Shown one piece after another: positions 19,697 to 32,446 of a stretch of DNA of 44,490 bases. The stretch lies in contig CAMBBS010000036.1 of NCBI GenBank assembly GCA_945863875.1, forward strand, positions 1-44,490, given 5' to 3'. Made by a program: the position numbers and the translations under genes. This DNA comes from Desulfopila aestuarii DSM 18488. Its GTDB lineage: Bacteria > Desulfobacterota > Desulfobulbia > Desulfobulbales > Desulfocapsaceae. Position 1 is the first letter of the stretch, and every line of letters starts with the position of its first letter. The notes below the pieces were generated by a model. It made no database searches. It was not told where the DNA came from and was given only the letters and a program-made list of their open reading frames with translations.

Positions 19697-20452
19697 ATGT
19701 ATGACATCAAAGTGTATCGCGATTTTATAAAAGATAGCATCCGAAAAAAGATCGATTTTCACAAGAGTGACCAGAGCAGAGGTGTTCCCGTACCACCATT
19801 GGAGGAACATATTGATCTGAAGTTACCTCGCATCGCTCTCCCTGAGGGATCATCCTGGGGGCCTGTTATAAAAGCAACTCATCTTGTGGACGCTATCAGT
19901 AATCGACGAAGCAGGCGAAACTATAGTGACGAATTCCTGAAAGTTGAAGAATTGGCCTTTCTTCTCTGGGCAACACAGGGACAAAGACAGCCAGGAAAAC
20001 AACCTCCCCATTTCCGCACAGTACCCTCGGCTGGTGCAAGGCACAGTTTCGAGACGTACTTGTTCATTCACAGGGTGGAAACATTACCCCAGGGGCTGTA
20101 TCGTTATCTTCCTCTCTCCAATGAGCTTGTTCTGCTCTATGATACCGATGACCAGTTTAAAACCAGACTATCCCAGGCAGCCCTGGGACAAAGATTTGTC
20201 GCTGACAGCGCAGTGTTGTTTATCTGGACAACCGTGCCTTATCGTATGGAATGGCGGTATTTACAGGCAGCACACCGGGTTATCCTGCTCGACGCAGGTC
20301 ATGTCTGCCAGAATCTCTATCTGGCATGCGAGGCGATTAATGCAGGAACCTGTGCAATTGCAGCCTACGATCAGGAAGCGATGGACGAGTTGATTCAGGT
20401 AGATGGAAAAGAACAATTCGTTATCTACCTCGCACCTGTGGGAAAATACTAG
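19697..20452 (+). CDS. SagB/ThcOx-family nitroreductase-like flavoprotein
   Basis: This 251-residue FMN-dependent oxidoreductase has the SagB-type signature (SNRRSRRNYSDEFLKVEELAFLLWATQG, then RTVPSAGARHSFETYLF) and the C-terminal GHVCQNLYLACEAINAGTCAIAAY. Members catalyse dehydrogenation or reduction of small molecules; only some act on azoline peptides, and no peptide-modification genes are nearby. It lies 30 nt upstream of the phosphatase gene of the next operon and could be co-transcribed. A damaged partial copy lies at 40893-41139. Confidence 0.88.
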   Translation: MYDIKVYRDFIKDSIRKKIDFHKSDQSRGVPVPPLEEHIDLKLPRIALPEGSSWGPVIKATHLVDAISNRRSRRNYSDEFLKVEELAFLLWATQGQRQPGKQPPHFRTVPSAGARHSFETYLFIHRVETLPQGLYRYLPLSNELVLLYDTDDQFKTRLSQAALGQRFVADSAVLFIWTTVPYRMEWRYLQAAHRVILLDAGHVCQNLYLACEAINAGTCAIAAYDQEAMDELIQVDGKEQFVIYLAPVGKY

Positions 20453-20482: not shown

Positions 20483-21271
20483 ATGCCTGAAACTATTGCT
20501 TTCTCGACCAACAACCGCCGGGTACCGCTCTCCGGAGCGGTTAATTTTCGCGATCTAGGTGGCTATCCGACCACGGATCATAACCGGGTTAGAAAAGGTC
20601 TGGTCTTTCGTTCCGATCACCTCTCCCGCCTGACCATAAACGATCAGCAACTTTTGCAGACTCTCCGCTTCAAAACGGTCTGTGACCTGAGAACCGTCCT
20701 TGAGCAGCGGCTGGCCCCTGACCTTTTGCCGGAAGATGACTCGATTCAACTCCTCTCTCTGCCGGTACAGGTTGACGGGTTTGATCCGGCTACCGTCATG
20801 GATCGACTGCGAGCGGACGATGAGGCGTGGCTGTCCGTCGATTTTTTCATCGAACTCTACCGGCGGTATCTCGACGATTTCGGCCCGGTGTGGGGCACGG
20901 TGCTCGGGTTGGTCGCTTCGTCGCACAACCTGCCGCTGGTCTTTCACTGCACCGGAGGCAAGGACCGCACCGGAATCTGTGCGGCCCTGCTGCTGAAGGC
21001 CCTCGGCGTACAGGAAGAAAATATTCTTCTTGATCACGATTACTCCAATGATTGCAATGCCGAAAGGCTGCAACCGATCTATGCCAAATTTGCTGCCATG
21101 GGCATCACGGCAGAGAAGGCCGCCCCCTATCTGCAGGCTCCGAGAGAACCCCTTGTTGCCCTGCTTGCCCACCTGAAAAAAACTTACGGTACCATCGAAA
21201 ATTATCTGCTGAGCAAGGCGGGGCTCGACCGGACAACACTCACCGCCCTGCGCCGACGCCTGCTGCAATGA
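20483..21271 (+). CDS. Tyrosine-phosphatase-like protein (Y_phosphatase3), first gene of the pterin/lipid cluster
   Basis: This 262-residue cysteine phosphatase has the family start GAVNFRDLGGYPT, LVFRSDHLSRLT and the P-loop FHCTGGKDRTG with the nucleophilic Cys, general Arg and the GKDRTG form typical of the PtpB/LipA group. These enzymes dephosphorylate phosphotyrosine or phosphoinositide substrates; in this operon, next to a CDP-alcohol phosphatidyltransferase, removal of a phosphate from a lipid head group is an attractive inference. AGAGGG precedes ATG 20483. Its TGA overlaps the next ATG by 4 nt. Confidence 0.9.
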   Translation: MPETIAFSTNNRRVPLSGAVNFRDLGGYPTTDHNRVRKGLVFRSDHLSRLTINDQQLLQTLRFKTVCDLRTVLEQRLAPDLLPEDDSIQLLSLPVQVDGFDPATVMDRLRADDEAWLSVDFFIELYRRYLDDFGPVWGTVLGLVASSHNLPLVFHCTGGKDRTGICAALLLKALGVQEENILLDHDYSNDCNAERLQPIYAKFAAMGITAEKAAPYLQAPREPLVALLAHLKKTYGTIENYLLSKAGLDRTTLTALRRRLLQ

Positions 21272-22512
21272 AAAACTGGAACCGGCACACTGAACGGCAA
21301 CAAGCACTGGCGCGCCTTCGCCGGCAGTGCTGTTGGGCTGCCGCACTTCTTTTTTCTCCCTGGCTGTCGACCATTTTTCTCTGTCGTCCTCTCTTTCACG
21401 ACCAGCCGGCGACGATCCTGGCCCTTCTGCCCGGACTAGCGACAGCGGTGTACCTGCACAGCCGCCTGTCTCGTCACCTGACAGCCAACCACCGCCCCTT
21501 CGAGACAAACAGGCTCTTTGCTACCCTGGGAGCAGCCAACTGGATCACACTGCTGCGTGCCGCGGCTGTCGTCGCCCTGGCCGGTTTCCTGCCTGTTGCC
21601 GCCTCGACGGTGGTCGCCACCCAGGAAAGCCGGGGGCAGTTGAACGCCGGTGGGCTGGCGTGGGCGCCGGGCATCATCTATCTGGGGATATCCCTGGCCG
21701 ATCTGCTTGACGGCTTTTTGGCCAGAAGGCAGGGGCGCGAGACCGAGCTCGGCAAACGACTGGATATCGAAACCGACGCCATGGGCCTGCTGGTGGCCTC
21801 ACTGCTGGCGGTTGTCCTCGGTCGGCTGCCGGTCATCTATCTCCTGGTCGGACTGGCTTACTATCCTTTTATCTTCGGCATATGGCTGCAGCAAAGACGG
21901 AAACTGCCGGTGGTCGCGCTGCAACCCAGGCCCTTTTCACGGATTATCGCCGGTTTTCAGATGGGCCTGGTCGGCCTGGCTCTTCTACCGGTCTTTCATC
22001 GTCCATTCCTCTTTCTTGCCGCCTCTATTTTCATGACGCCGCTGCTTATCGGTTTTATGAGAGACTGGCTGGTGGTTTCCCGCCGAATAGAATCCGACAG
22101 AAACCAACAGACAGGCCTGGACCGCTGGGCACGGTCAAAGATGAGGACGGTACCGATGACCCTTCGCCTGGGGCTTTTTTCCGGAGGGATGATGATACTT
22201 GTTGATTTCGGCATACAGTGGCATCTGCTGTGGCATCTGTCGTGGCAATCGGTTGCCCTGGCAATCTTCTGTATCTGCGGTCTCTTGGCCACCATTGGCT
22301 GCATGGGCCGCACTGCCGCTCTTTGCCTGGCCCTGCTGCTTGCCGGCAACCAATCGCCTTTTGGGGCATCTCTTTTATCGTTCGTTGTCTTCGCCTTCGC
22401 CGCTGCCCTGATGATAATCGGTACCGGCGCCTTGTCCCTCTGGACTCCGGAAGAAACAATCCTCTACCGCCAAGGGAAAAACAAACCAACGTCCAATGGC
22501 GGGCCACGATGA
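21268..22512 (+). CDS. CDP-alcohol phosphatidyltransferase-family membrane protein
   Basis: This 414-residue multi-pass membrane protein, starting at ATG 21268 in a 4-nt overlap, carries the complete CDP-alcohol phosphotransferase motif D-x2-D-G-x2-A-R-x8-G-x3-D-x3-D (DLLDGFLAR, then GKRLDIETD). The enzyme joins a CMP-activated lipid or alcohol to an acceptor alcohol in the inner membrane. It is about twice the size of PgsA or PssA because of an extra C-terminal block of about six hydrophobic helices (residues about 220-400), not seen in housekeeping enzymes. The acceptor is unknown; the operon suggests a special head group. Confidence 0.9.
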   Translation: MKNWNRHTERQQALARLRRQCCWAAALLFSPWLSTIFLCRPLFHDQPATILALLPGLATAVYLHSRLSRHLTANHRPFETNRLFATLGAANWITLLRAAAVVALAGFLPVAASTVVATQESRGQLNAGGLAWAPGIIYLGISLADLLDGFLARRQGRETELGKRLDIETDAMGLLVASLLAVVLGRLPVIYLLVGLAYYPFIFGIWLQQRRKLPVVALQPRPFSRIIAGFQMGLVGLALLPVFHRPFLFLAASIFMTPLLIGFMRDWLVVSRRIESDRNQQTGLDRWARSKMRTVPMTLRLGLFSGGMMILVDFGIQWHLLWHLSWQSVALAIFCICGLLATIGCMGRTAALCLALLLAGNQSPFGASLLSFVVFAFAAALMIIGTGALSLWTPEETILYRQGKNKPTSNGGPR

Positions 22513-23597
22513 CCATATCTCGACCACCATCCGCCAAGGGGACCACCGGTAAATGGTCGACTGTCGGACGGGAAATAATCAAGAGATGGCGCTGGCCCCT
22601 CGGATTGCTTGGTCTGACACTCGCCTGGCACGCCCTGCGGGAAGTTATCTGGGCCGAAGTATGGCAGCTCCTGGCCGGAATGGATTCTCTGGCCATTCTG
22701 ACCCTTGGAGTCGTCAACCTGCTTATGCTGCCTTTGATGACCGCCAGATGGTGGCTGCTCCTCAGGCTCCTCGGCTCGCCGGTCGATCCGCTCTCCGTCT
22801 GTGCCTATCGCCTGGCCGCCAACGCCGTCAGTTATCTTACTCCCGGCCCGCATTTCGGCGGAGAACCGCTCGCGGTCTATCTCCTGCAGCATCGCCACGG
22901 GATACCAACGGTCTCCGCCGCCACCTCGGTCGCCGTCGACCGGCTGCTTGAGCTTTTCGCCGGCTTTATCGTCCTGTCACTCTGCCTGACTGGTCTGGCA
23001 TCTGCGCAAACCGGTCTCTTTCAGGCGAATAACGGACCGTGGCTCGTCCTTGCCGTACCGGCTGTCGTTACCTGGATCCTCGCCCTGCTGAGCACCGGTG
23101 GCAGACCCCTGTCCCGGGTATTAGTGCCGGTGAGAAAATTTTGTGGCCGATTCCTCCCCCGGCTTTCCGGTAACAGCCCGATGTTCGCCTTTATTACCCA
23201 GGGCGAGGACATGGCCGCAGCCCTTTTTCGGCGACACCGCTCCCTCTTCCTGCTGGCCAATCTTCTTTCCTTTGGCCATTGGCTGGGAGTCTTCTTCGAA
23301 TTTTGGCTGATGTCGGTCTTTCTGCAGCTGCCGTTGCCTTTCTGGCACCTGACAGCGGTGGTAGTTGTTGCGCGGCTGGCGTTTTATACGCCCCTGCCGG
23401 CTGGTATCGGTGCATTGGAATCGGCCCTCCCCTGGCTGACCGCCACCCTGGGCTCGGGAAGCAGCCTCGGGTTCGGCCTCTGCCTGATCATCCGATTCCG
23501 TGACCTTCTCTTTAGTCTGGCGGGACTGGCGCTTACCATGAAGTATTTGACTTGTCCCGACAAGGCCGGTATCATTCGCGATAGAACCGAGCAATAG
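22509..23597 (+). CDS. LPG-synthase-type transmembrane protein (UPF0104/AglD family)
   Basis: This 362-residue integral membrane protein with about eight helices starts at ATG 22509, overlapping the previous stop (ATGA). The stretch YLTPGPHFGGEPLAVYLL, followed by ATSVAVDRLLELFAGF, and the later YTPLPAGIGALESALPWL are marks of the lysylphosphatidylglycerol synthase transmembrane family. Proteins with only this part are thought to move or help move lipids and lipid-linked products across the membrane. A flippase for the product of this cluster is plausible. Confidence 0.88.
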   Translation: MTISRPPSAKGTTGKWSTVGREIIKRWRWPLGLLGLTLAWHALREVIWAEVWQLLAGMDSLAILTLGVVNLLMLPLMTARWWLLLRLLGSPVDPLSVCAYRLAANAVSYLTPGPHFGGEPLAVYLLQHRHGIPTVSAATSVAVDRLLELFAGFIVLSLCLTGLASAQTGLFQANNGPWLVLAVPAVVTWILALLSTGGRPLSRVLVPVRKFCGRFLPRLSGNSPMFAFITQGEDMAAALFRRHRSLFLLANLLSFGHWLGVFFEFWLMSVFLQLPLPFWHLTAVVVVARLAFYTPLPAGIGALESALPWLTATLGSGSSLGFGLCLIIRFRDLLFSLAGLALTMKYLTCPDKAGIIRDRTEQ

Positions 23598-23644
23598 ATT
23601 ACACACGATCTGTCAGGATAACAACAGGATGGAAAAGGATCCCC

Positions 23645-24442
23645 ATGGATGAAAATCAGCCTCGGACCAACGCTCTCAGTCGTGCCCGGAAAACACCGGC
23701 AACCGGCAGCACCGACCCCGATTGTCAATCGCAAGCATGGTTCGACCGATTACCTGATCTTTCTGAGGACTTCCTGGACCGTCACCACCGGCCACTCGTG
23801 ACTGTTTCCTACGCCCAGAGCGTCGATGGCAGCATCGCCGGCCGGAATCGTCAACAACTTCAGCTAAGCGGCCACCAGTCGATGGTCTTGACCCACCGGA
23901 TCCGGGCCGCCTGCGACGCCATCGTCATCGGCATCAATACGCTGCTGGTCGATAACCCACTGCTGACTGTTCGTCTCATCGAGGGACCGAATCCCCAACC
24001 GATTGTTCTCGACAGCAAGCTGCGCATCCCCCTGGAGGCCAGGCTTCTGGACCGCACTGACCATCGTTGCTGGCTGGCCTGTACCGACAAAAGCGACCTC
24101 GAACGGATCGACACGGTTGAACGTCGAGGCGCTGAACTCATCCACTGCCGCCGTGATAGCCGGGACCGAGTCGATCTACCTGACCTGCTTTCTCTGCTCG
24201 GCCAAAAGGGCATCAAGAGCGTCATGGTTGAAGGCGGCAGCCAGGTCATCACCAGTTTTCTCGAGGCACGCCTGGTCGACCAGATGATCATCACTATCGC
24301 TCCCCGCCTGGTGGGAGGTCTGCCGGTATTGAATCGACCGACAGCCGGCAACGGTTCCCTGTTGCATCTCGATTCCATTACCTACCAGTCCTGCGGTCCG
24401 GACATCATCCTCTGGGGGAAACCGCAGTGGAGGAAAGCGTGA
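23645..24442 (+). CDS. RibD C-terminal-type reductase
   Basis: This 265-residue member of the RibD-C/DHFR-like family has LVTVSYAQSVDGSIAG, the dinucleotide-binding region IRAACDAIVIGINTLLVDNPLLTVR and the strand-turn VMVEGGSQVITSFLE. In riboflavin synthesis such domains reduce the ribosyl side chain of a pyrimidine, and distant relatives act on pterins. The deaminase domain of true RibD is missing; an N-terminal extension of about 45 residues replaces it. It starts 47 nt after the flippase-like gene and overlaps the dehydrogenase start by 4 nt (GTGA). Here it probably reduces the pterin-like product or precursor of the cluster. Confidence 0.9.
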   Translation: MDENQPRTNALSRARKTPATGSTDPDCQSQAWFDRLPDLSEDFLDRHHRPLVTVSYAQSVDGSIAGRNRQQLQLSGHQSMVLTHRIRAACDAIVIGINTLLVDNPLLTVRLIEGPNPQPIVLDSKLRIPLEARLLDRTDHRCWLACTDKSDLERIDTVERRGAELIHCRRDSRDRVDLPDLLSLLGQKGIKSVMVEGGSQVITSFLEARLVDQMIITIAPRLVGGLPVLNRPTAGNGSLLHLDSITYQSCGPDIILWGKPQWRKA

Positions 24443-25458
24443 ACCGGCAACGGCTGGAATTTATCGCGCCGGGATGGGTGGACATCAACCTCGGCCCGGC
24501 ACCGCGGCCAGCAGCCGATCAGGTCCTGGTACGGACACGTTTTTCGGCCATAAGTCCGGGAACGGAGATGCTGGTTTACCGGGGACAGTGGCCGGAGGGC
24601 GTGCCGCTGGACAGCACCATCGAAGCCTTGGCCGGCGCCTTTGCCTATCCCCTCGCCTACGGCTATTCCACGGTCGGCCGGGTAGTCGCCACGGGCACCG
24701 CGGTATCCGGCGACTGGCTGAACCGCCGGGTCTTCGCCTTCCAGCCCCACCAGAATCTTTTCTGTGCCGCCGCCGCGACCCTGCAGCCCATTCCTGACGA
24801 TCTCGACGATGAAACCGCTCTCTTTCTGCCCAGTATGGAAACGGCGGTCAATCTCCTTTTGGACGGCCATCCCCTGATTGGAGAACACGTTGTAGTAATC
24901 GGCCAGGGCATCATCGGCCTGCTTGCAACCGCCCTGCTGGCCCGTTTTCCGCTGGCTACACTCACCACCATCGACGCGTATCCACTGCGGCGCGAGGCCT
25001 CCATGAACTTTGGTGCGAAAGAGAGCCATGACCCGGCGGATCCGTCCCTCCTCGCCCGATTGGGCGGAAATGAGGGTCAGGGAGGCAAGGCGGATCTGGT
25101 CTTGGAACTGTCGGGCAATCCGGCAGCCCTGAACACCGCCCTTTCCCTGACGCGTTTCAACGGCAGGGTGGTGGTTGGATCCTGGTACGGCACGAAAAAG
25201 ACCGAGCTGAAACTTGGTTCTTTTTTTCATCGTGGCCGGGTGTCGTTGATCAGCTCCCAGGTCAGCAGTCTCGCCCCCGAACTAACCGGCCGATGGCCAG
25301 ACGGCCGGCGCCTTGAGCTGGCCTGGCAAATGCTGCGGCAGGTTCGCCCGTCCGGCTGCATCAGTCATCGTTTTGCCCTGGCGGACGCGGCGTCGGCCTA
25401 TGCCCTCATTGACCGCAGTCCGGGCGAGACGATTCAGGTCATTTTCGATCACCAATAA
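24439..25458 (+). CDS. MDR-superfamily (zinc-type) alcohol dehydrogenase
   Basis: This 339-residue medium-chain dehydrogenase has the GroES-like N-terminal half with YGYSTVGRVVATG, then a Rossmann fold with VVVIGQGIIGLLA. The start is GTG 24439, since GGAGGAAA precedes it by a few nt and it overlaps the RibD-like stop. The usual GHE motif with the catalytic zinc ligands is not evident, so it may be a zinc-free reductase. It resembles dehydrogenases of natural-product pathways (such as the bacteriochlorophyll BchC group) more than housekeeping alcohol dehydrogenases. A role on a side-chain hydroxyl of the cluster's product is inferred. Confidence 0.88.
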   Translation: MNRQRLEFIAPGWVDINLGPAPRPAADQVLVRTRFSAISPGTEMLVYRGQWPEGVPLDSTIEALAGAFAYPLAYGYSTVGRVVATGTAVSGDWLNRRVFAFQPHQNLFCAAAATLQPIPDDLDDETALFLPSMETAVNLLLDGHPLIGEHVVVIGQGIIGLLATALLARFPLATLTTIDAYPLRREASMNFGAKESHDPADPSLLARLGGNEGQGGKADLVLELSGNPAALNTALSLTRFNGRVVVGSWYGTKKTELKLGSFFHRGRVSLISSQVSSLAPELTGRWPDGRRLELAWQMLRQVRPSGCISHRFALADAASAYALIDRSPGETIQVIFDHQ

Positions 25459-25508
25459 TCAGCAATAGTTGGTAAGGAAGAGCTACAATAAACGAGGAGA
25501 AAAATAGC

Positions 25509-25886
25509 ATGTACAGTCTCGGAGTAGGGCGCGATTTCAGCGCCAGCCATTACCTGGTCGGCGGCGACTGGGGAGCAGAGAACATCGAACATTTGCACCG
25601 TTACCGGCTGGAACTGGTGCTGGAGAAAAAAAAACTGGACCAGCACGGTTTTCTGGTCGATATTGTCGAGGTGGAGCGTCATCTGAACGAGGTTGTCGCC
25701 GATTTTCAGGGCAAAACCCTTAACACCTTAGTCTCCTTTGGCGGCGGTAATCCCAGTATCGAACGACTGGCCACTGTTATTTATGACCTGGTCAAAAAGA
25801 GGCTCGCGCCTTTTCGCCTCGATGCCATGGCCGTCACCATCCGGGAAGATGATATCGCCTGGACCTCGTACCGTACCACCCTCTGA
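25509..25886 (+). CDS. Divergent 6-pyruvoyl-tetrahydropterin synthase / QueD homologue
   Basis: This 125-residue T-fold protein keeps the zinc ligands H14, H28 and H30 (FSASH, HLHRY) and the pterin-anchoring glutamate (E113 in REDD). The catalytic cysteine four residues before the second His is Glu24, as in PTPS-III enzymes that make 6-hydroxymethyl-dihydropterin. The Asp-His pair of the LDHxxLN motif is Gln67-Gly68 (FQGKTLN). So it can probably bind a pterin, but its chemistry differs from both QueD and biopterin-type PTPS. ACGAGGAGAA precedes ATG 25509. Its TGA overlaps the next ATG by 1 nt. It links the cluster to pterins. Confidence 0.88.
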   Translation: MYSLGVGRDFSASHYLVGGDWGAENIEHLHRYRLELVLEKKKLDQHGFLVDIVEVERHLNEVVADFQGKTLNTLVSFGGGNPSIERLATVIYDLVKKRLAPFRLDAMAVTIREDDIAWTSYRTTL

Positions 25887-27913
25887 TGCGCATCGGCTTG
25901 GTCATTTACGGCAGTCTGGATACTCTCTCCGGCGGCTATCTCTATGACCGCATCGTGGTCGAAGGGTTGCGACGGCTCGGCCACGAGGTGGAAGTAATCG
26001 GCTTGCCTTCGGGCTCGTACCTCCGCCGACTGGCATGCGGCTTTTCGCCTGATATCCTTCGTCGGCTGCTGGCCGGTAAATTCGACATTCTCATCCAGGA
26101 TGAACTCTGCCACCCGACACTCTTTTCGGTCAATCGGCGACTTCGTCGTCAGGGTGGCCCGTTGCTTGTGGCCCTGGTCCACCATACCCTCTCCGCCGAA
26201 CCACGCCACCCCTGGCACAATAAGCTGCTGGCCCTGGCCGAACGGCGATTTCTCGCTTCGGTCGACGGTTTTATCCATAACTCGGCAACCACAAGCCGCA
26301 CAGCTGGGTCCCTGGTGGTGCACAAGCGACCGGAGGTTATCGCCTACCCGGCCGGCGACCGGTTCGGCAGCCCTCTGGCCGCTGAATTCATCAATCAACG
26401 TGCCGACCGGCCCGGACCATTACAGCTGCTCTTTCTCGGCAATGTGATTGCCAGAAAAGGTCTGGTGCCGCTGTTGAAGGGATTGGCGAAAATTGATCGT
26501 CAGCTCTGGCGGTTGTCGGTCGTTGGCGCTCTTGACTTCGATCCCGCCTATACCGCCGAAGCGCGGCAGCTCGTCCGAGACCTTGATCTGTCCGGGTCGG
26601 TTCGCTTTCTTGGTCCTCTCGACAATGACCGACTGGTCGAGACCCTGAGCGAGAGCCATCTCTTCTGTATGCCGTACGCCTATGAGGGCTTCGGCATCGC
26701 CATGCTGGAGGCCATGGCCTTTGGTCTGCCGGCCATCGGTTGTCTAAGCGGTGCGGCCGGCGAGACCATCCGCCACGGCGAAAACGGCTACCTGCTGGCC
26801 ATGGGCGATCTTGCCGGCCTGCAGCCGCTGCTGAATCAATTGCATCAGGATCGGGACAGGCTGCGGCGGCTCTCACTTGCTGCCCGTGCAACCTGTGCCG
26901 CAAGTCCTGGCTGGCAGGACGGGGTGGCCGCCATTGATGGTTTCCTGAGGCAGCTAAAGGACCGGCAAGACCGCCAGGCGAAGACGAATGACTGGGGTGG
27001 CTGCTTTGATCCCCGTTATCTTGCCGCCAAGAAAAGCATTGACGACCGGGCTCTGAACCATCATGTCTGGGAGACGCTCCGCGTTACGCTGCCGCAAACC
27101 ACCGGCGGCGCACCGGTGAACATTCTCGAAATAGGCGCCGGCATCGGCACCATGCTTGAACGGATGGTCGATCGACACCTGCTGACCGGTCCCGTCACCT
27201 ATATGGCCACCGACTGCGATCCGAACCAACTTATGGCGGCACGCCGATATCTGACCAAGTGGGCAGGAAAAAAGGGGTACAGCCTGTCCTGGACCGGTGA
27301 AAATCATGGCTGCCTGAGTACCCCTGGCGCCAGAATCTCGCTTTCACTCGAGCCGGCCAGTGCCGAAGAGCTTGCCGACCGGGCCGACTCGCCGGGCACC
27401 TTCCACCTGATCATCGCCCATGCCGTGCTCGATCTGATCGACTTCCCCAACCTGCTGCCGCGCCTTCTGTCACGGCTGACTGATAACGGCATGGCCTACT
27501 GCACCTGCAACTTCGACGGGGAGACCGTCTTCTTGCCCAAATGGGCAGGCGAAGAGGAAATAATCGGACGCTATCATGCCTCAATGGAGGCGCGGCTGTC
27601 CGGGGCAAGCCACACCGGCCGAAGACTGCTGAGCTTTCTGCAGGGTCCGGGCCTGGAACTCCTCGCCGCCGGCAGTTCTGACTGGATCATCCACCCCCGG
27701 AACCATGGCTATTTAACCAACGAGAGCTATTTCCTGCACGCCATCATTGAAACGGTGGAACAGGAACTTTGCCGCCAAGATCTTTCGCCGGCCGACCTTG
27801 CCGGACTGACCGACTGGGCCCGTTTGCGGCACCGGCAGGTGGACGATGGGGAACTGTCCTTTCTGGCCCGCCACCTCGATCTCCTGGCCCGCCGTCGACC
27901 ATCCCTGCCATGA
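25886..27913 (+). CDS. Fused GT4 glycosyltransferase - SAM methyltransferase
   Basis: A 675-residue two-domain protein. Residues 1 to about 360 form a GT-B glycosyltransferase of family 4: LSGGYLYD near the N-terminus, LFLGNVIARKG at the interdomain start, and YEGFGIAMLEAMAFGLP with the E-x7-E catalytic signature near 267. Residues about 390-675 form a class I methyltransferase with motif I ILEIGAGIGTML (near 412), DCDP for the ribose acid and HAVLDLIDF as motif IV. The GT would use a nucleotide sugar. It overlaps its neighbours by 1 nt upstream and 4 nt downstream. The fusion suggests sequential glycosylation and methylation of one molecule. Cytoplasmic. Confidence 0.9.
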   Translation: MRIGLVIYGSLDTLSGGYLYDRIVVEGLRRLGHEVEVIGLPSGSYLRRLACGFSPDILRRLLAGKFDILIQDELCHPTLFSVNRRLRRQGGPLLVALVHHTLSAEPRHPWHNKLLALAERRFLASVDGFIHNSATTSRTAGSLVVHKRPEVIAYPAGDRFGSPLAAEFINQRADRPGPLQLLFLGNVIARKGLVPLLKGLAKIDRQLWRLSVVGALDFDPAYTAEARQLVRDLDLSGSVRFLGPLDNDRLVETLSESHLFCMPYAYEGFGIAMLEAMAFGLPAIGCLSGAAGETIRHGENGYLLAMGDLAGLQPLLNQLHQDRDRLRRLSLAARATCAASPGWQDGVAAIDGFLRQLKDRQDRQAKTNDWGGCFDPRYLAAKKSIDDRALNHHVWETLRVTLPQTTGGAPVNILEIGAGIGTMLERMVDRHLLTGPVTYMATDCDPNQLMAARRYLTKWAGKKGYSLSWTGENHGCLSTPGARISLSLEPASAEELADRADSPGTFHLIIAHAVLDLIDFPNLLPRLLSRLTDNGMAYCTCNFDGETVFLPKWAGEEEIIGRYHASMEARLSGASHTGRRLLSFLQGPGLELLAAGSSDWIIHPRNHGYLTNESYFLHAIIETVEQELCRQDLSPADLAGLTDWARLRHRQVDDGELSFLARHLDLLARRRPSLP

Positions 27914-29517
27914 AGTCCGAAAAGCCCTTTTATCAGCTCTTGATCCAGCTCACTGCCGCCTTTTTATTCCTCAGTGCTCTGCTGAACCTGAACTACCCGG
28001 CCGGCCGTTTTTTTTCCCCACAGCTGCTGCTGCCGTCTGTTGACGTCTGGCTGCTGCTTATCCCGCTCGCTTTGGCGGCCTGGGCCGGAGGACGACTACT
28101 GTTCTGGACCGGTCTGCCGCTGTGGGTGTTTTTTCTTGTGCTGCGCCTGTTCCGCATCGCCGACACGACGGTCCCGATGTATCTCAACCGCCCTTTCAAC
28201 CTCGCCATCGATTCCGGTTACCTCTTCGATCTCTACGATCTGCTCAAGACCTCTGCCCGTCAGGGGGAGTTCCTGCTGCAGTCGGTAAACATTGCAGTGG
28301 TGGCACTGGGGGTAGTCATCTCCAGCTGGTATGCCTGGCGGGCGGCAACCAGAGCGCTTCTGGCCCATCGGGTCCGGCTGTCTTTCCTGCTCGTCTCGGG
28401 GGTCCTCCTCGGTGCGGGGCATCTTTGTCAATTGCCGCCAACTCAACCGCCGGTTATGGTCCGCTTCGGCCGCGAGCTCCTTTCCGTCCCCCGGCAACGG
28501 GCACAGCAGCGGGCCGTCCTCGCCCGAATAGAGACAACGGCCCGGGACAGGAAAATTCATGCCTCCCCGGACAAAGGGCTCGAAGGACTGCGGGGCGCCG
28601 ATGTGCTATTGTTCATGGTCGAGTCCTATGGCCATATCGTCTTCAATCGACCTTCCTATCAACCGGCGATGGAGGCCACCATGGCCGGCTTTGCCGAAAT
28701 CCTTGAAGAGCACGGCTTCATGGCAGTCTCTTCCTATCTGACCTCCCCGACCTACGGCGGGGCATCCTGGCTGGCCCACAGCACCCTGGAGTTCGGGGTG
28801 CGGGTGGAAAACGACCTCGAGGAGAAGGCGTTACTCCGCTCCACCCTGCCGCCTCTGGCCGCCTATTTTCACAGGAGCGGTTATCGTACCGTCTCGGTGA
28901 TGCCCGGCACCCGCTTTTCCTATCCGGAAGGGGCCGTTTTTGGCTACAACCGGTTCTATTACGCCTGGGATTTCGGTTATCAAGGCCCGACCTTCGGCTG
29001 GGCGCCGATGTCCGACCAATTTGTGCTGGACTGGGTGCGCCGCCGGGAATTGGCCGAACGTCGACAGCCGCTCTTTATTCGCTATGTACTGATCAGCAGC
29101 CACGCCGCCTTCAGCATTCAACCGCCATTCCTTGCCGATTGGCGCGAGATCGGCGACGGCAGTATCTACCATGACCGGCAGCTGGTCTACTATCCCATTC
29201 ACTGGCCAAATCTCCACAATGCCGGAGGGGCATATCTTCGTTCCTTGGACTACGAATTTACTATCCTCGGAGATTATCTTGCCAAATTTGTCGATACCGA
29301 CACCCTGATTATCATCATGGGCGACCACCAGCCCAATCTCCAGCTCACCGGCAAAGGCGAGCCCTGGTCGGTACCGGTGCATGTCATCAGTCGCAATCCC
29401 CGGCTGCTGGAGCCGTTTCAAAAGCGGAGTTACACATCGGGCCTCATCCCGGCCCAACCACTCCCCCATGCCGGGATGGAGACTTTCTTACCGAATTTCC
29501 TGCTGGATTTCCGGTAG
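27910..29517 (+). CDS. Membrane sulfatase / LtaS-type alkaline-phosphatase-superfamily protein
   Basis: This 535-residue protein starts at ATG 27910 (4-nt overlap). Four to five N-terminal helices (to about 180) precede an extracytoplasmic catalytic domain: ADVLLFMVESYG with metal-binding Glu, SPTYGGASWLAHSTL with the probable Thr nucleophile, and IIIMGDHQPN with metal-binding Asp and His. This is the layout of lipoteichoic acid synthase, phosphoethanolamine transferases and OpgB, which transfer a lipid head group on the outer side of the inner membrane. The last gene of the operon; it would finish or decorate the product after export. Confidence 0.9.
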   Translation: MKSEKPFYQLLIQLTAAFLFLSALLNLNYPAGRFFSPQLLLPSVDVWLLLIPLALAAWAGGRLLFWTGLPLWVFFLVLRLFRIADTTVPMYLNRPFNLAIDSGYLFDLYDLLKTSARQGEFLLQSVNIAVVALGVVISSWYAWRAATRALLAHRVRLSFLLVSGVLLGAGHLCQLPPTQPPVMVRFGRELLSVPRQRAQQRAVLARIETTARDRKIHASPDKGLEGLRGADVLLFMVESYGHIVFNRPSYQPAMEATMAGFAEILEEHGFMAVSSYLTSPTYGGASWLAHSTLEFGVRVENDLEEKALLRSTLPPLAAYFHRSGYRTVSVMPGTRFSYPEGAVFGYNRFYYAWDFGYQGPTFGWAPMSDQFVLDWVRRRELAERRQPLFIRYVLISSHAAFSIQPPFLADWREIGDGSIYHDRQLVYYPIHWPNLHNAGGAYLRSLDYEFTILGDYLAKFVDTDTLIIIMGDHQPNLQLTGKGEPWSVPVHVISRNPRLLEPFQKRSYTSGLIPAQPLPHAGMETFLPNFLLDFR

Positions 29518-29767: not shown

Positions 29768-32446
29768 ATGTCATTCACACAACTTGAAGCTGCAGTGATG
29801 CCGGACGGCACAATCCAACTTGAATGGGGGGATGTGGCCGTAAGGCTTGACCGACACAACGGGGAACTGCAAAACGAAATTTTTTCCCACTATTCCGCCG
29901 ACCCACGTAGTTGGTTTTTTCAACTCGGCTTTTGCAATAAACATAAAACATTATCACCCTCTCTCGTTTTTTGGCGTGACTTTAGCGGTTTTTTTATCGA
30001 GAAACTCCGCCTCACCCCCGACATCGAAAAGTATCGTGAGGAGTTGGTGCTCCCCTTGGCCGATGAAGATCTCATCCGCTTTAGGAAAACTGCGCCGCTC
30101 ATGTCCGGCGGGGAGTATCTCAAAGATGAGGTGTTTCTTGACCTGTGGACCTGGCTGCACGAGATATTTGCCGAAAAGATAGCAGCCTATGACGGCTCGG
30201 TTGCGGAGTTCATTAAGCAATTCAGCCCGGACATCCACCTGGTCGGACGGATTTATTTCCATCTGGTCGAAAATAAAAAAAGCGACACGCCTTTTGCCTT
30301 TCTTGCCACCTATTCGACACGCTTAAATGAACAGGGCGAATCACGGCATCTGCCGTTAAAATTCGCCCTGGAAGAGTACCGGGACGATCAGGATAAATTG
30401 CTCCAGCTCTTGGTGACCGTCCATGAAGCTGTGCTTCGGAGTGACTTGCTGGCAAACCTCCTTAACTCCGGCGAGTTATTTCATCCGCTCTCCTGGTCGG
30501 CGAAAGAAGCGTTTGCTTTTTTGCAAGAGATACCGCTTTACCAGCAAGCCGGTATCCTCTGCCGCATTCCGAACTGGTGGAAGGGAAAAGCTGCGGGTAT
30601 TGGTATCCACATCAGCATCGGGGAGAAACCGCCGACTATGGTCGGGATGGCCGCGCTACTTGATTTTCGTCCCCGGCTTATGCTTGGTGATACGGAAATC
30701 TCCGAAGAGGAAGCCCGTCATCTACTGCAGCAGTCAGAGGGCCTGGCATTCTTGAAAAACAAGTGGATTGCTGTTGATTCGGAAAAATTGCAGCAGACGC
30801 TTGCCGCCTATGAAAAGGCCCGGAAACTCAACACGGAAGAGGGTATCAGTTTTCTCGATGCCATGCGTTTTTCCATGAGCCCGCAGGCACTTCTCGGTAC
30901 CGCTGACGACGGCATGCTTACCGGGGTCTCCAATGGCCAGTGGCTGCAATCAGTTATTGCTCAACTCCACCGTCCCTCTGCTAGCGGCACCGTCAAAACC
31001 GACAAGTCATTTACCGCCAAGCTTCGGGGCTATCAGCAGGATGGCCTAAAATGGCTCCATTACCTGCATACCCTGCAGCTCGGCGCCTGTCTGGCCGATG
31101 ACATGGGGCTCGGTAAGACCGTGCAGCTCCTCGCCTTTCTCAGTGCCCTGAAAAAGGAAAAGAAGAAAACCGGGAATTCGCCCGGAGCCTCGCTTCTGAT
31201 CATTCCAGCATCACTTTTATCCAACTGGATGAATGAAATACAGGCGTTTTTTCCGGATCTTCAATATCTTGCCGTCCACCCAGATCTCCATAAACCAGGC
31301 AAGGCCCCTGAACCTGGTCCGGACCAACTGGCCGGCCTCGATCTCGTCATCACCACGTATGCCCTGACCCAACGCTATGCATGGATTCAGCAGGCCTCCT
31401 GGTATTATATTATTCTCGATGAAGCGCAGGCCATCAAGAACCCGGGGACCAAACAGACCAAGGCCATAAAAAAACTGACCGCTGTCAATAGAATTGCCAT
31501 GACCGGGACACCGGTTGAAAACAGGTTGTCGGATTTATGGAGTCTTTTCGACTTTCTTAATCCGGGACTACTTGGCAATGCCAAGGAATTCAGCACCTTC
31601 ACAAAAGGCTTGGCCGATGACCCGAATGGCTATGCCAGGCTCAGAAAGGTCGTCAGCCCTTTCATTCTCAGGCGGTTGAAGACGGACAAGTCGATTATTT
31701 CCGATCTCCCCGACAAGGTGGAAGTGAAGACCTGGGCGGCAATGAGCAAAAAACAGACCGTGCTTTATGGTGAAATGGTAGCAGGTTTAAGAGAGATCAT
31801 TGAAAAGGCCGAGGGAATACAGAGAAAAGGTGTCATCCTCTCGGCGCTGATGAAGTTCAAGCAGCTCTGCAACCATCCGGCCCAATATCTTGGCCAGGAG
31901 CTGTTTGAGGAAACCGACAGTGGCAAGTTTGCCAGGCTGCGCGAAATCTGCGAGATCATCCACGAAAAAAGAGAAAAAGTTCTGGTCTTCACCCAGTTTA
32001 AAGAGATAACCGAGCCCTTGTCCCGGTTCCTGGCAACTATTTTCAAACGACAAGGTCTGGTTCTGCATGGCAGCATCCCGGTCGGCAAGAGAAAAGAACT
32101 CATTGAAAAATTTCAGGGACATGAATATGTTCCATACTTTGTTTTATCACTCAAGGCCGGAGGGGTCGGACTCAACCTGACCGCCGCTAACCATGTCATT
32201 CATTTTGACCGGTGGTGGAACCCGGCGGTGGAGAATCAAGCAACCGACAGGGCTTTTCGTATCGGCCAGAAAAAAAATGTCATGGTCCACAAGTTCCTGA
32301 CCAAGGGCACGGTGGAAGAAAAAATCGATGAGATGCTGACCGCCAAATCACAGCTCGCAGGGGAGGTTGTCGCCGCGTCCGGCGAGAACTGGATAACCGA
32401 AATGAGCAATGACCAGCTGTTTGATCTCTTTTCCTTGCAACCATAA
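29768..32446 (+). CDS. SNF2-family DNA helicase/translocase
   Basis: This 892-residue protein has an N-terminal region of unknown function (to about 400) and a complete SNF2 motor: Walker A MGLGKTVQLLAFL, DEAQAIKN (DEAD/DEAH position), MTGTPVENRLSDLWSLFDF, and the C-terminal helicase lobe with VFTQFKEIT and ATDRAFRIGQKKNV. Such enzymes move along double-stranded DNA and remodel bound proteins. The next gene encodes a SWIM protein 15 nt on, a pair often found together in bacteria, so the two probably act in one DNA-handling complex. A role in repair, transcription or defence is undecided. Confidence 0.95.
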   Translation: MSFTQLEAAVMPDGTIQLEWGDVAVRLDRHNGELQNEIFSHYSADPRSWFFQLGFCNKHKTLSPSLVFWRDFSGFFIEKLRLTPDIEKYREELVLPLADEDLIRFRKTAPLMSGGEYLKDEVFLDLWTWLHEIFAEKIAAYDGSVAEFIKQFSPDIHLVGRIYFHLVENKKSDTPFAFLATYSTRLNEQGESRHLPLKFALEEYRDDQDKLLQLLVTVHEAVLRSDLLANLLNSGELFHPLSWSAKEAFAFLQEIPLYQQAGILCRIPNWWKGKAAGIGIHISIGEKPPTMVGMAALLDFRPRLMLGDTEISEEEARHLLQQSEGLAFLKNKWIAVDSEKLQQTLAAYEKARKLNTEEGISFLDAMRFSMSPQALLGTADDGMLTGVSNGQWLQSVIAQLHRPSASGTVKTDKSFTAKLRGYQQDGLKWLHYLHTLQLGACLADDMGLGKTVQLLAFLSALKKEKKKTGNSPGASLLIIPASLLSNWMNEIQAFFPDLQYLAVHPDLHKPGKAPEPGPDQLAGLDLVITTYALTQRYAWIQQASWYYIILDEAQAIKNPGTKQTKAIKKLTAVNRIAMTGTPVENRLSDLWSLFDFLNPGLLGNAKEFSTFTKGLADDPNGYARLRKVVSPFILRRLKTDKSIISDLPDKVEVKTWAAMSKKQTVLYGEMVAGLREIIEKAEGIQRKGVILSALMKFKQLCNHPAQYLGQELFEETDSGKFARLREICEIIHEKREKVLVFTQFKEITEPLSRFLATIFKRQGLVLHGSIPVGKRKELIEKFQGHEYVPYFVLSLKAGGVGLNLTAANHVIHFDRWWNPAVENQATDRAFRIGQKKNVMVHKFLTKGTVEEKIDEMLTAKSQLAGEVVAASGENWITEMSNDQLFDLFSLQP

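Follow-up and report, generated by a model that had tools for sequence, protein, structure and literature searches.

The window analysed here is a 44,490-nucleotide stretch from Desulfopila aestuarii DSM 18488 (positions 1 to 44,490 of CAMBBS010000036.1 in assembly GCA_945863875.1; contig 36 of the 4.69 Mb assembly), in which eight intact open reading frames follow one another on the + strand between positions 20483 and 29517. An initial annotation, made from the sequence alone, had read them as a coupled operon joining pterin-type enzymes with lipid head-group and glycosylation enzymes, and all eight genes were present in the order it gave, each with a match to its named family in Pfam (Table 1, which also gives the gene labels used below). 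Its statement that most genes overlap by 1-4 nt was about right: five of the seven junctions overlap (by 4, 4, 16, 1 and 4 nt) and the other two are gaps of 47 and 50 nt, and the 16-nt overlap of RIBC and MDR shrinks to 4 nt if MDR starts at the GTG at 24439. The glycosyltransferase-methyltransferase fusion it named is present too, but was seen in the window alone, as the two domains were never together in any further frame searched. Its term LtaS-like for the last gene has the Pfam match in Table 1 as its whole basis, no NCBIfam family being matched. The GC content of the operon, noted earlier as raised, is 0.594 versus 0.507 for the remaining window, a value reached by none of 384 overlapping same-length stretches taken from the remaining window and three other loci of the same genome, and the cluster copies of three relatives are likewise richer in GC than their flanks (0.553/0.475, 0.519/0.436 and 0.594/0.550). 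A scan for promoters and terminators was uninformative, with 4 promoter-like sites versus 3.9 expected and 15 terminator-like sites versus 10.2.

Table 1. Genes of the operon, with coordinates in the window and the family matches that identify them; the named loci are the 80 relatives described in the text.
Label	Product	Coordinates	Strand	Matches and remarks
TYR	Y_phosphatase3 family phosphatase	20483..21271	+	Pfam 2.1e-58; HCTGGKDRTG active-site motif intact; 7/80 named loci
CDP	CDP-alcohol phosphatidyltransferase	21268..22512	+	Pfam CDP-OH_P_transf 8.3e-13; motif DLLDGFLARRQGRETELGKRLDIETD; extra C-terminal segment
LPG	LPG_synthase_TM / flippase-like membrane protein	22509..23597	+	Pfam 2.2e-28
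RIBC	RibD C-terminal type pyrimidine reductase, deaminase domain absent	23645..24442	+	Pfam RibD_C 1.8e-44; TIGR00227
MDR	BchC-like medium-chain dehydrogenase	24427..25458 (start possibly 24439)	+	Pfam ADH_zinc_N 2.7e-10
PTPS	PTPS homologue	25509..25886	+	Pfam PTPS 4e-21
GT-MT	GT4 glycosyltransferase (GT)-SAM methyltransferase (MT) fusion	25886..27913	+	Glycos_transf_1 1.7e-26; Methyltransf_12 1.5e-5 (26 bits, cut-off 30 not reached)
LTAS	Sulfatase-superfamily (LtaS/EptA type) domain protein	27910..29517	+	Pfam Sulfatase PF00884 2.2e-8; 10/80 named loci

Absence of this gene set from other genomes, set beforehand as grounds for rejecting the operon reading, was not what we found: the RibD_C reductase, MDR, the PTPS homologue, GT and MT co-occur in other genomes. 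Relatives were located through MDR, the named loci being the best 80 of 563 by MDR match, and neighbours were counted within 7 kb of that gene. The groups of loci overlap (named loci recur among unnamed ones, and the same contigs stand under two labels), and their counts are not additive; the CDP, GT, MT and other family profiles were trained on cluster members, which favours their detection. The core of RIBC, MDR, PTPS, GT and MT recurs, entire or in part, in Desulfobacterota, Chloroflexota, archaea, one Streptomyces and two Pseudomonadota plasmids, and because it recurs across such distant phyla the grouping reflects more than chance. Among the 80 named loci we counted RIBC in 65, PTPS in 70, GT in 66, MT in 56, CDP and LPG in 34 each, LTAS in 10 and TYR in 7. 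Where both partners were present in these loci, they were mostly adjacent and co-directional, or fused: RIBC-MDR in 63 of 65, MDR-PTPS in 60 of 70, PTPS-GT in 64 of 66, GT-MT in 48 of 55 and CDP-LPG in 26 of 27. A fused MDR-PTPS frame listed for L202 and L204 was judged from its coordinates to be an out-of-frame open reading at high GC.

The distribution of the cluster is broad but sparse. With an E-value limit of 1e-20, MDR was matched by 15 of 297 genomes sampled from the window's phylum; with a limit of 1e-40, by 38 of 201 genomes of Chloroflexota (the phylum of L094); and with a limit of 1e-60, by 26 of 196 genomes of the archaeal phylum of L127, the own or central genome being included each time. 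The own-phylum sample of 14 loci held RIBC in 11, PTPS and GT in 9 each, MT in 5, CDP in 1 (on the other strand) and LPG in none. For Chloroflexota we used 35 loci, one per genome, from the 38 genomes with a match (L094 is one more; two genomes and some second matches were left out), and found PTPS in 23, GT in 24, RIBC in 18, GTP cyclohydrolase (GCH) II in 7, an acyltransferase in 6, MT in 4, LPG in 3 and CDP in none. The 26 archaeal loci held PTPS in 26, GT in 19, MT in 18, CDP in 17 and RIBC in none. MDR, PTPS and MT, mostly with GT, also occur together on plasmids of Streptomyces fungicidicus, Candidatus Thiodictyon syntrophicum, Methylosinus trichosporium and two haloarchaea. The named relatives with the highest MDR identity are mostly Desulfobulbaceae, Desulfobacterales and Deltaproteobacteria, including Desulfopila sp. 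IMCC35006 (L074) and Desulforhopalus sp. IMCC35007 (L085). Among relatives the cluster is a patchy, accessory trait: a PTPS homologue at 65-100 % identity to that of the window was present in 8 genomes, its own included, among 57 relatives, and these 8 include 5 of the 15 genomes of the genus. We read the operon as the Desulfobacterota form of a biosynthetic cluster common to bacteria and archaea.

The likely first step of the pathway came from these relatives. GCH II stands next to the reductase, or is fused with it, in 32 of the 80 named loci. When a GCH II protein (Pfam GTP_cyclohydro2, 2.1e-62) served as query in a single-pass search, 45 loci were retrieved, 33 of them named, and an iterated profile agreed on the same count of 33/80. 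GCH II and RIBC share one open frame in 14 loci, of which 12 are named; in the archaeal locus L182 a 577-aa frame joins GCH II (residues 15-205) to MDR (242-575), and in L125 a 339-aa frame holds GCH II and part of MDR. A further archaeal frame of 397 aa (L192, 5816-7009) carries GCH II at residues 5-195 and a C-terminal half that neither the RIBC nor the MDR profile matched. GTP cyclohydrolase IIa (GCH IIa) was found in 5 of the 26 archaeal loci, and Haloarcula halophila has the gene order CDP, GCH IIa, MDR, PTPS, MT. That the archaeal GCH IIa here stands in place of the bacterial GCH II strongly indicates that the product of the cyclohydrolase feeds the MDR and PTPS steps. The usual Tyr of GCH II was recovered by pattern in 41 of the 45 copies; of the others, two show it by eye, one looks broken, and the Streptomyces copy (L155, 14470-15216) has Met there and adjoins a creatininase-family gene (PF02633). 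We take the Met-variant GCH II of S. coelicolor to form a formylamino compound, and ArfB of archaea is a creatininase-family enzyme that removes a formyl group. These comparisons strongly support a pathway that would start from the GCH II pyrimidine. The earlier view that RibD-C proteins act on pterins or pyrimidines can accordingly be narrowed: since relatives carry GCH II or archaeal GCH IIa, a riboflavin-type pyrimidine is the most likely substrate.

The riboflavin genes of carrier genomes bear on what the cyclohydrolase is for. Of the 33 named loci with a cluster GCH II, 13 were tested for lumazine synthase (RibH) and riboflavin synthase (RibE): L094, L095, L099, L108, L115, L121, L128, L130, L140, L142, L143, L150 and L151. 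Twelve of these genomes gave no RibH match, and the same 12 no RibE match. Both enzymes were matched in L121, L127 and the window's genome, and controls gave RibH in 14 of 14 genomes and RibE in 11 of 14. RibD_C was tested in 12 of the genomes, 11 of which have one match above 100 bits with coordinates that fit the cluster, most with weaker matches besides. In the three checked for other cyclohydrolases (L094, L099 and L108), the cluster GCH II is the sole GCH II match. With both enzymes unmatched in 12 of the 13, the cluster GCH II probably does not serve riboflavin, and GCH II and RIBC most likely work for the cluster there. On another contig of the window's genome, a 403-aa RibBA-like GCH II frame stands between RibE and RibH; because this frame is the genome's only GCH II match, it would feed both pathways. 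The same genome has no GCH I match and two FolE2-type matches.

RIBC scores 161.3 bits against TIGR00227, above the cut-off of 150.15, and is one of two RibD_C matches in its genome, the other lying in a 377-aa frame elsewhere. The best NCBIfam match of MDR is BchC (TIGR01202, 3.3e-16), at 59.3 bits versus a cut-off of 291.25. MDR lacks a conserved Cys and has GxGxxG followed by Asp, and is probably NAD-dependent; the PTPS homologue keeps three His and the terminal Glu113, has Glu24 in place of the catalytic Cys, and shows no Asp-His pair. With PF01242 above its cut-off, a T-fold, the three metal His and the terminal Glu, the protein belongs to the PTPS superfamily. Its structure model (mean predicted local distance difference test score, pLDDT, 95) has SCO6650 (PDB 3d7j) as best fold match. 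Residue 112, beside Glu113, is Arg in the window and Trp in 74 of 76 family rows.

Gene 6 lacks the sequence signatures of PTPS-I, PTPS-III and PTPS-IV. QueD (PTPS-I) is marked by CxxxHGH and PTPS-III by ExxHGH (PMC5041015). The window has ENIEHLH, with Glu24 at the Cys position, Glu at -4 and Asn at -3 of the first His, and HLH for HGH; the QueD model TIGR03367 is missed as well (45.6 versus 89.25 bits). On these motifs, a QueD or PTPS-III role was rejected. PTPS-IV is described by the signature FGPAQ (PMC5445326), which we found in L155-L157; the window has WGAEN. The same source places RibD_C and PF00925 next to PTPS-IV and, in the part used here, names PF00925 FolE2/GCH I, contrary to Pfam, where it is GTP cyclohydrolase II; that part proposes no pathway for PTPS-IV. 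The window's cluster contains RibD_C and no PF00925, which is present in 33 of the 80 named relatives. A passage elsewhere mentions an unpublished link of PTPS-IV to F420 synthesis and calls PTPS-V unclear (PMC5041015).

From these families we propose the following pathway, which as a whole, from GTP through a pyrimidine to a glycosylated, methylated pterin-like product with a lipid arm in this lineage, has in our judgement an even chance of being right. GCH II, encoded in the cluster or fused to its enzymes in relatives, would open GTP, and RIBC, by its family, would act next on the 2,5-diaminopyrimidine, reducing its ribosyl side chain to ribityl. As no deaminase is encoded, the 2-amino group of pterins would be retained. 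MDR might then oxidise a secondary side-chain hydroxyl to a ketone; were this the 2' hydroxyl, the ketone could close on the 5-amino group to give a 7,8-dihydropterin, and RIBC and MDR would replace, in two redox steps, the Amadori rearrangement of GTP cyclohydrolase I. The PTPS homologue, with its altered catalytic residues, may trim or rearrange the side chain, and GT and MT would be expected to glycosylate and methylate the product. In this lineage CDP, LPG, TYR and LTAS could couple a phospholipid to the product (or to its polyol), which would then be flipped and decorated on the outer side. We regard a pterin-like, glycosylated and methylated product as likely on the enzyme families present, and ring closure by RIBC and MDR, like lipid anchoring, as plausible. 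The most far-reaching version is doubtful: a pterin-ring route free of GCH I (using GCH II, or GCH IIa with a creatininase-family deformylase) that, with anchoring on a phospholipid or an archaeal lipid by CDP, would yield a membrane-anchored, redox-active glyco-pterin in both domains.

Several observations weigh against this pathway. GCH II is not in the window's cluster. RIBC is present in none of the 26 archaeal loci, where ArfC encoded elsewhere must be assumed, and in 18 of the 35 Chloroflexota loci; PTPS is absent from 12 of 35 Chloroflexota and 5 of 14 own-phylum loci. In some loci MDR stands alone, with no other core gene within 7 kb (L067, L068 and L070 of the own-phylum sample, L236-L241 of the Chloroflexota sample), and these relatives may be another enzyme or reflect another role of the dehydrogenase family. 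Glu24 is not universal, the position being Ala in 12 of 23 Chloroflexota rows and in the three FGPAQ rows. L094 and L108 are chromosome records and most of the other genomes are contigs of metagenome-assembled genomes, for which reason RibH and RibE genes may simply be missing. L094 and L108 also have three GCH I matches each, so that plain dihydroneopterin is unlikely as the purpose, and MDR may oxidise another position. Finally, many copies lack genes of the lipid arm: CDP was found in none of the 35 Chloroflexota loci and one of the 14 own-phylum loci, and TYR and LTAS in 7 and 10 of the 80 named loci. As many copies have no lipid gene nearby, the lipid step may be optional, done by genes elsewhere, or unrelated.

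The last of these possibilities would divide the operon into two modules sharing a transcript, RIBC-MDR-PTPS-GT-MT making a soluble glycosylated, methylated pterin-like compound, be it a pigment, a cofactor or a signal, and TYR-CDP-LPG-LTAS an unrelated phospholipid head group. We consider this possible, though clearly less probable than the joint pathway. Known pterin glycosides such as cyanopterin are soluble, the rarity of TYR and LTAS agrees with it, and lipid genes are mostly absent from the two evenly drawn samples (LPG in 3/35 and 0/14 beside the CDP counts above). Against it, CDP lies within 7 kb of MDR in 17 of 26 archaeal loci (14 on the strand of the cluster), in 34 of 80 named loci (31 on that strand) and in three of the five plasmid loci (one haloarchaeal, two bacterial). 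Of ten cluster-linked copies, eight from Chloroflexota or archaea score 71-154 bits against the window's CDP, and ten housekeeping copies score at most 18.7; the Thiodictyon copy scores 28, and the Streptomyces copy, at 19, is not distinguishable by score from the housekeeping ones. A tree largely groups the cluster copies (2 changes versus 11.9 in shuffles) but does not prove a single origin: the best it gives is 2 changes, only 18 % of bootstraps have 1 change, and branches are long. In Thiodictyon CDP is directly followed by a frame of 600 aa that scores 574 bits against the LTAS profile (L156, 13885-15687, in a stretch without a listed gene), recalling the window's order of lipid genes around the core. 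Some Chloroflexota that lack CDP have an acyltransferase-family gene (PF01553; e.g. L102, 8086-8979) or LPG upstream of MDR (6 and 3 of 35), which also counts against separate modules. Of the lipid link put forward initially, the association with CDP is supported in many lineages, archaea included, and that with TYR and LTAS is weakened, the Thiodictyon frame notwithstanding; many copies lack lipid genes.

The CDP motif DxxDGxxARx8GxxxDxxxD is complete in the window. The C-terminal segment of the protein belongs to no Pfam family; a DoxX-like identity was rejected for want of a Pfam match, and kinship with a family of small hydrophobic membrane proteins for want of a profile match (hhalign probability 0.4 %). 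That family (about 113 aa; L099, 14215-14556, and 31 other loci) lies near the cluster in Chloroflexota and archaea and has no Pfam match above cut-off. The Thiodictyon cluster has a cytochrome b561-family gene between its MT and RibD-family genes (L156, 11479-12036). Around the window's operon, a SagB-type nitroreductase-family gene (19697-20452, same strand) stops 30 nt upstream, and an SNF2-family helicase gene with DUF3670 lies downstream (29768-32446). Neither was accepted as a cluster member: the former adjoins the cluster in 0 of 80 named loci, the latter in 1, on the opposite strand.

A flavin- or F420-type pathway, in which GCH II and RibD_C would lead to 5-amino-6-ribitylamino-uracil and the PTPS homologue would act on a deazaflavin precursor, draws on the fact that both are riboflavin/F420 enzymes and on the unpublished PTPS-IV-F420 remark in PMC5041015. 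It is improbable: the eight window genes include no deaminase family match, and 12 of 13 genomes with a cluster GCH II have no RibH or RibE match, with no F420-gene search made. Less probable still is an ordinary envelope glycolipid operon whose oxidoreductases and PTPS homologue have been co-opted to work on sugars or polyols, neither a pterin nor a pyrimidine taking part. GT4, MT, CDP, LPG and sulfatase families are frequent in envelope operons, and MDR and PTPS fall far under the cut-offs of their characterised relatives, but the fusions of GCH II to RIBC and to MDR, and the choice between GCH II and archaeal GCH IIa as neighbour, suggest a pyrimidine derived from guanine. That the PTPS homologue is a QueD in a queuosine-like (7-deazapurine) side pathway is scarcely credible, given the missing CxxxHGH motif and QueD score, the lack of QueC or QueE family matches among the eight genes, and two other PTPS-family genes elsewhere in the genome.

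The preferred pathway, from a GCH II pyrimidine to a modified pterin-like product, resembles several known systems in part. The initial annotation knew of no described pathway with this gene set, and we too found none in the open literature searched. The first steps of riboflavin and F420 synthesis in archaea and fungi (GCH II or IIa/III, ArfB, ArfC) share GCH II or IIa, the creatininase family and RibD_C with the cluster, which differs in its linked MDR, PTPS, GT and MT and its presence in genomes without RibH/RibE matches. BchC, the bacteriochlorophyllide dehydrogenase, is the best NCBIfam match of MDR, but the score is low and the eight genes include none for chlorophyll synthesis. Microbial pterin glycosides, cyanopterin among them, are glycosylated, methylated pterins, the kind of product expected from the cluster's GT and MT; those described are made from the product of GTP cyclohydrolase I and are not known to involve CDP-alcohol phosphotransferases. 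Huimycin joins PTPS, GT and MT, but does so through GCH I and QueC/QueE-type enzymes (PMC7439116).

QueD and 6-pyruvoyl-tetrahydropterin synthase differ from the window's homologue in having the catalytic Cys where it has Glu, and in the Asp-His pair not seen in it. Its nearest known relative is the PTPS-IV group with SCO6650 of Streptomyces coelicolor, for which a structure and a neighbourhood network are known and the literature searched offered no pathway. To that family the cluster adds a likely start (the GCH II pyrimidine), an enzyme order, and genomes in which the first two enzymes seem to have no other task. Should the ring prove to be a pterin, there would be two ways of making it; should the lipid link be true, bacteria and archaea would have membrane lipids of a new class, with redox-active head groups. 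The window's homologue has WGAEN, Glu24 and all three His, of which the three FGPAQ members seen lose the third. We therefore place the cluster near that of PTPS-IV but apart from it, as one in which the metal His are retained, a first step is likely and, in this lineage, a lipid arm is added.

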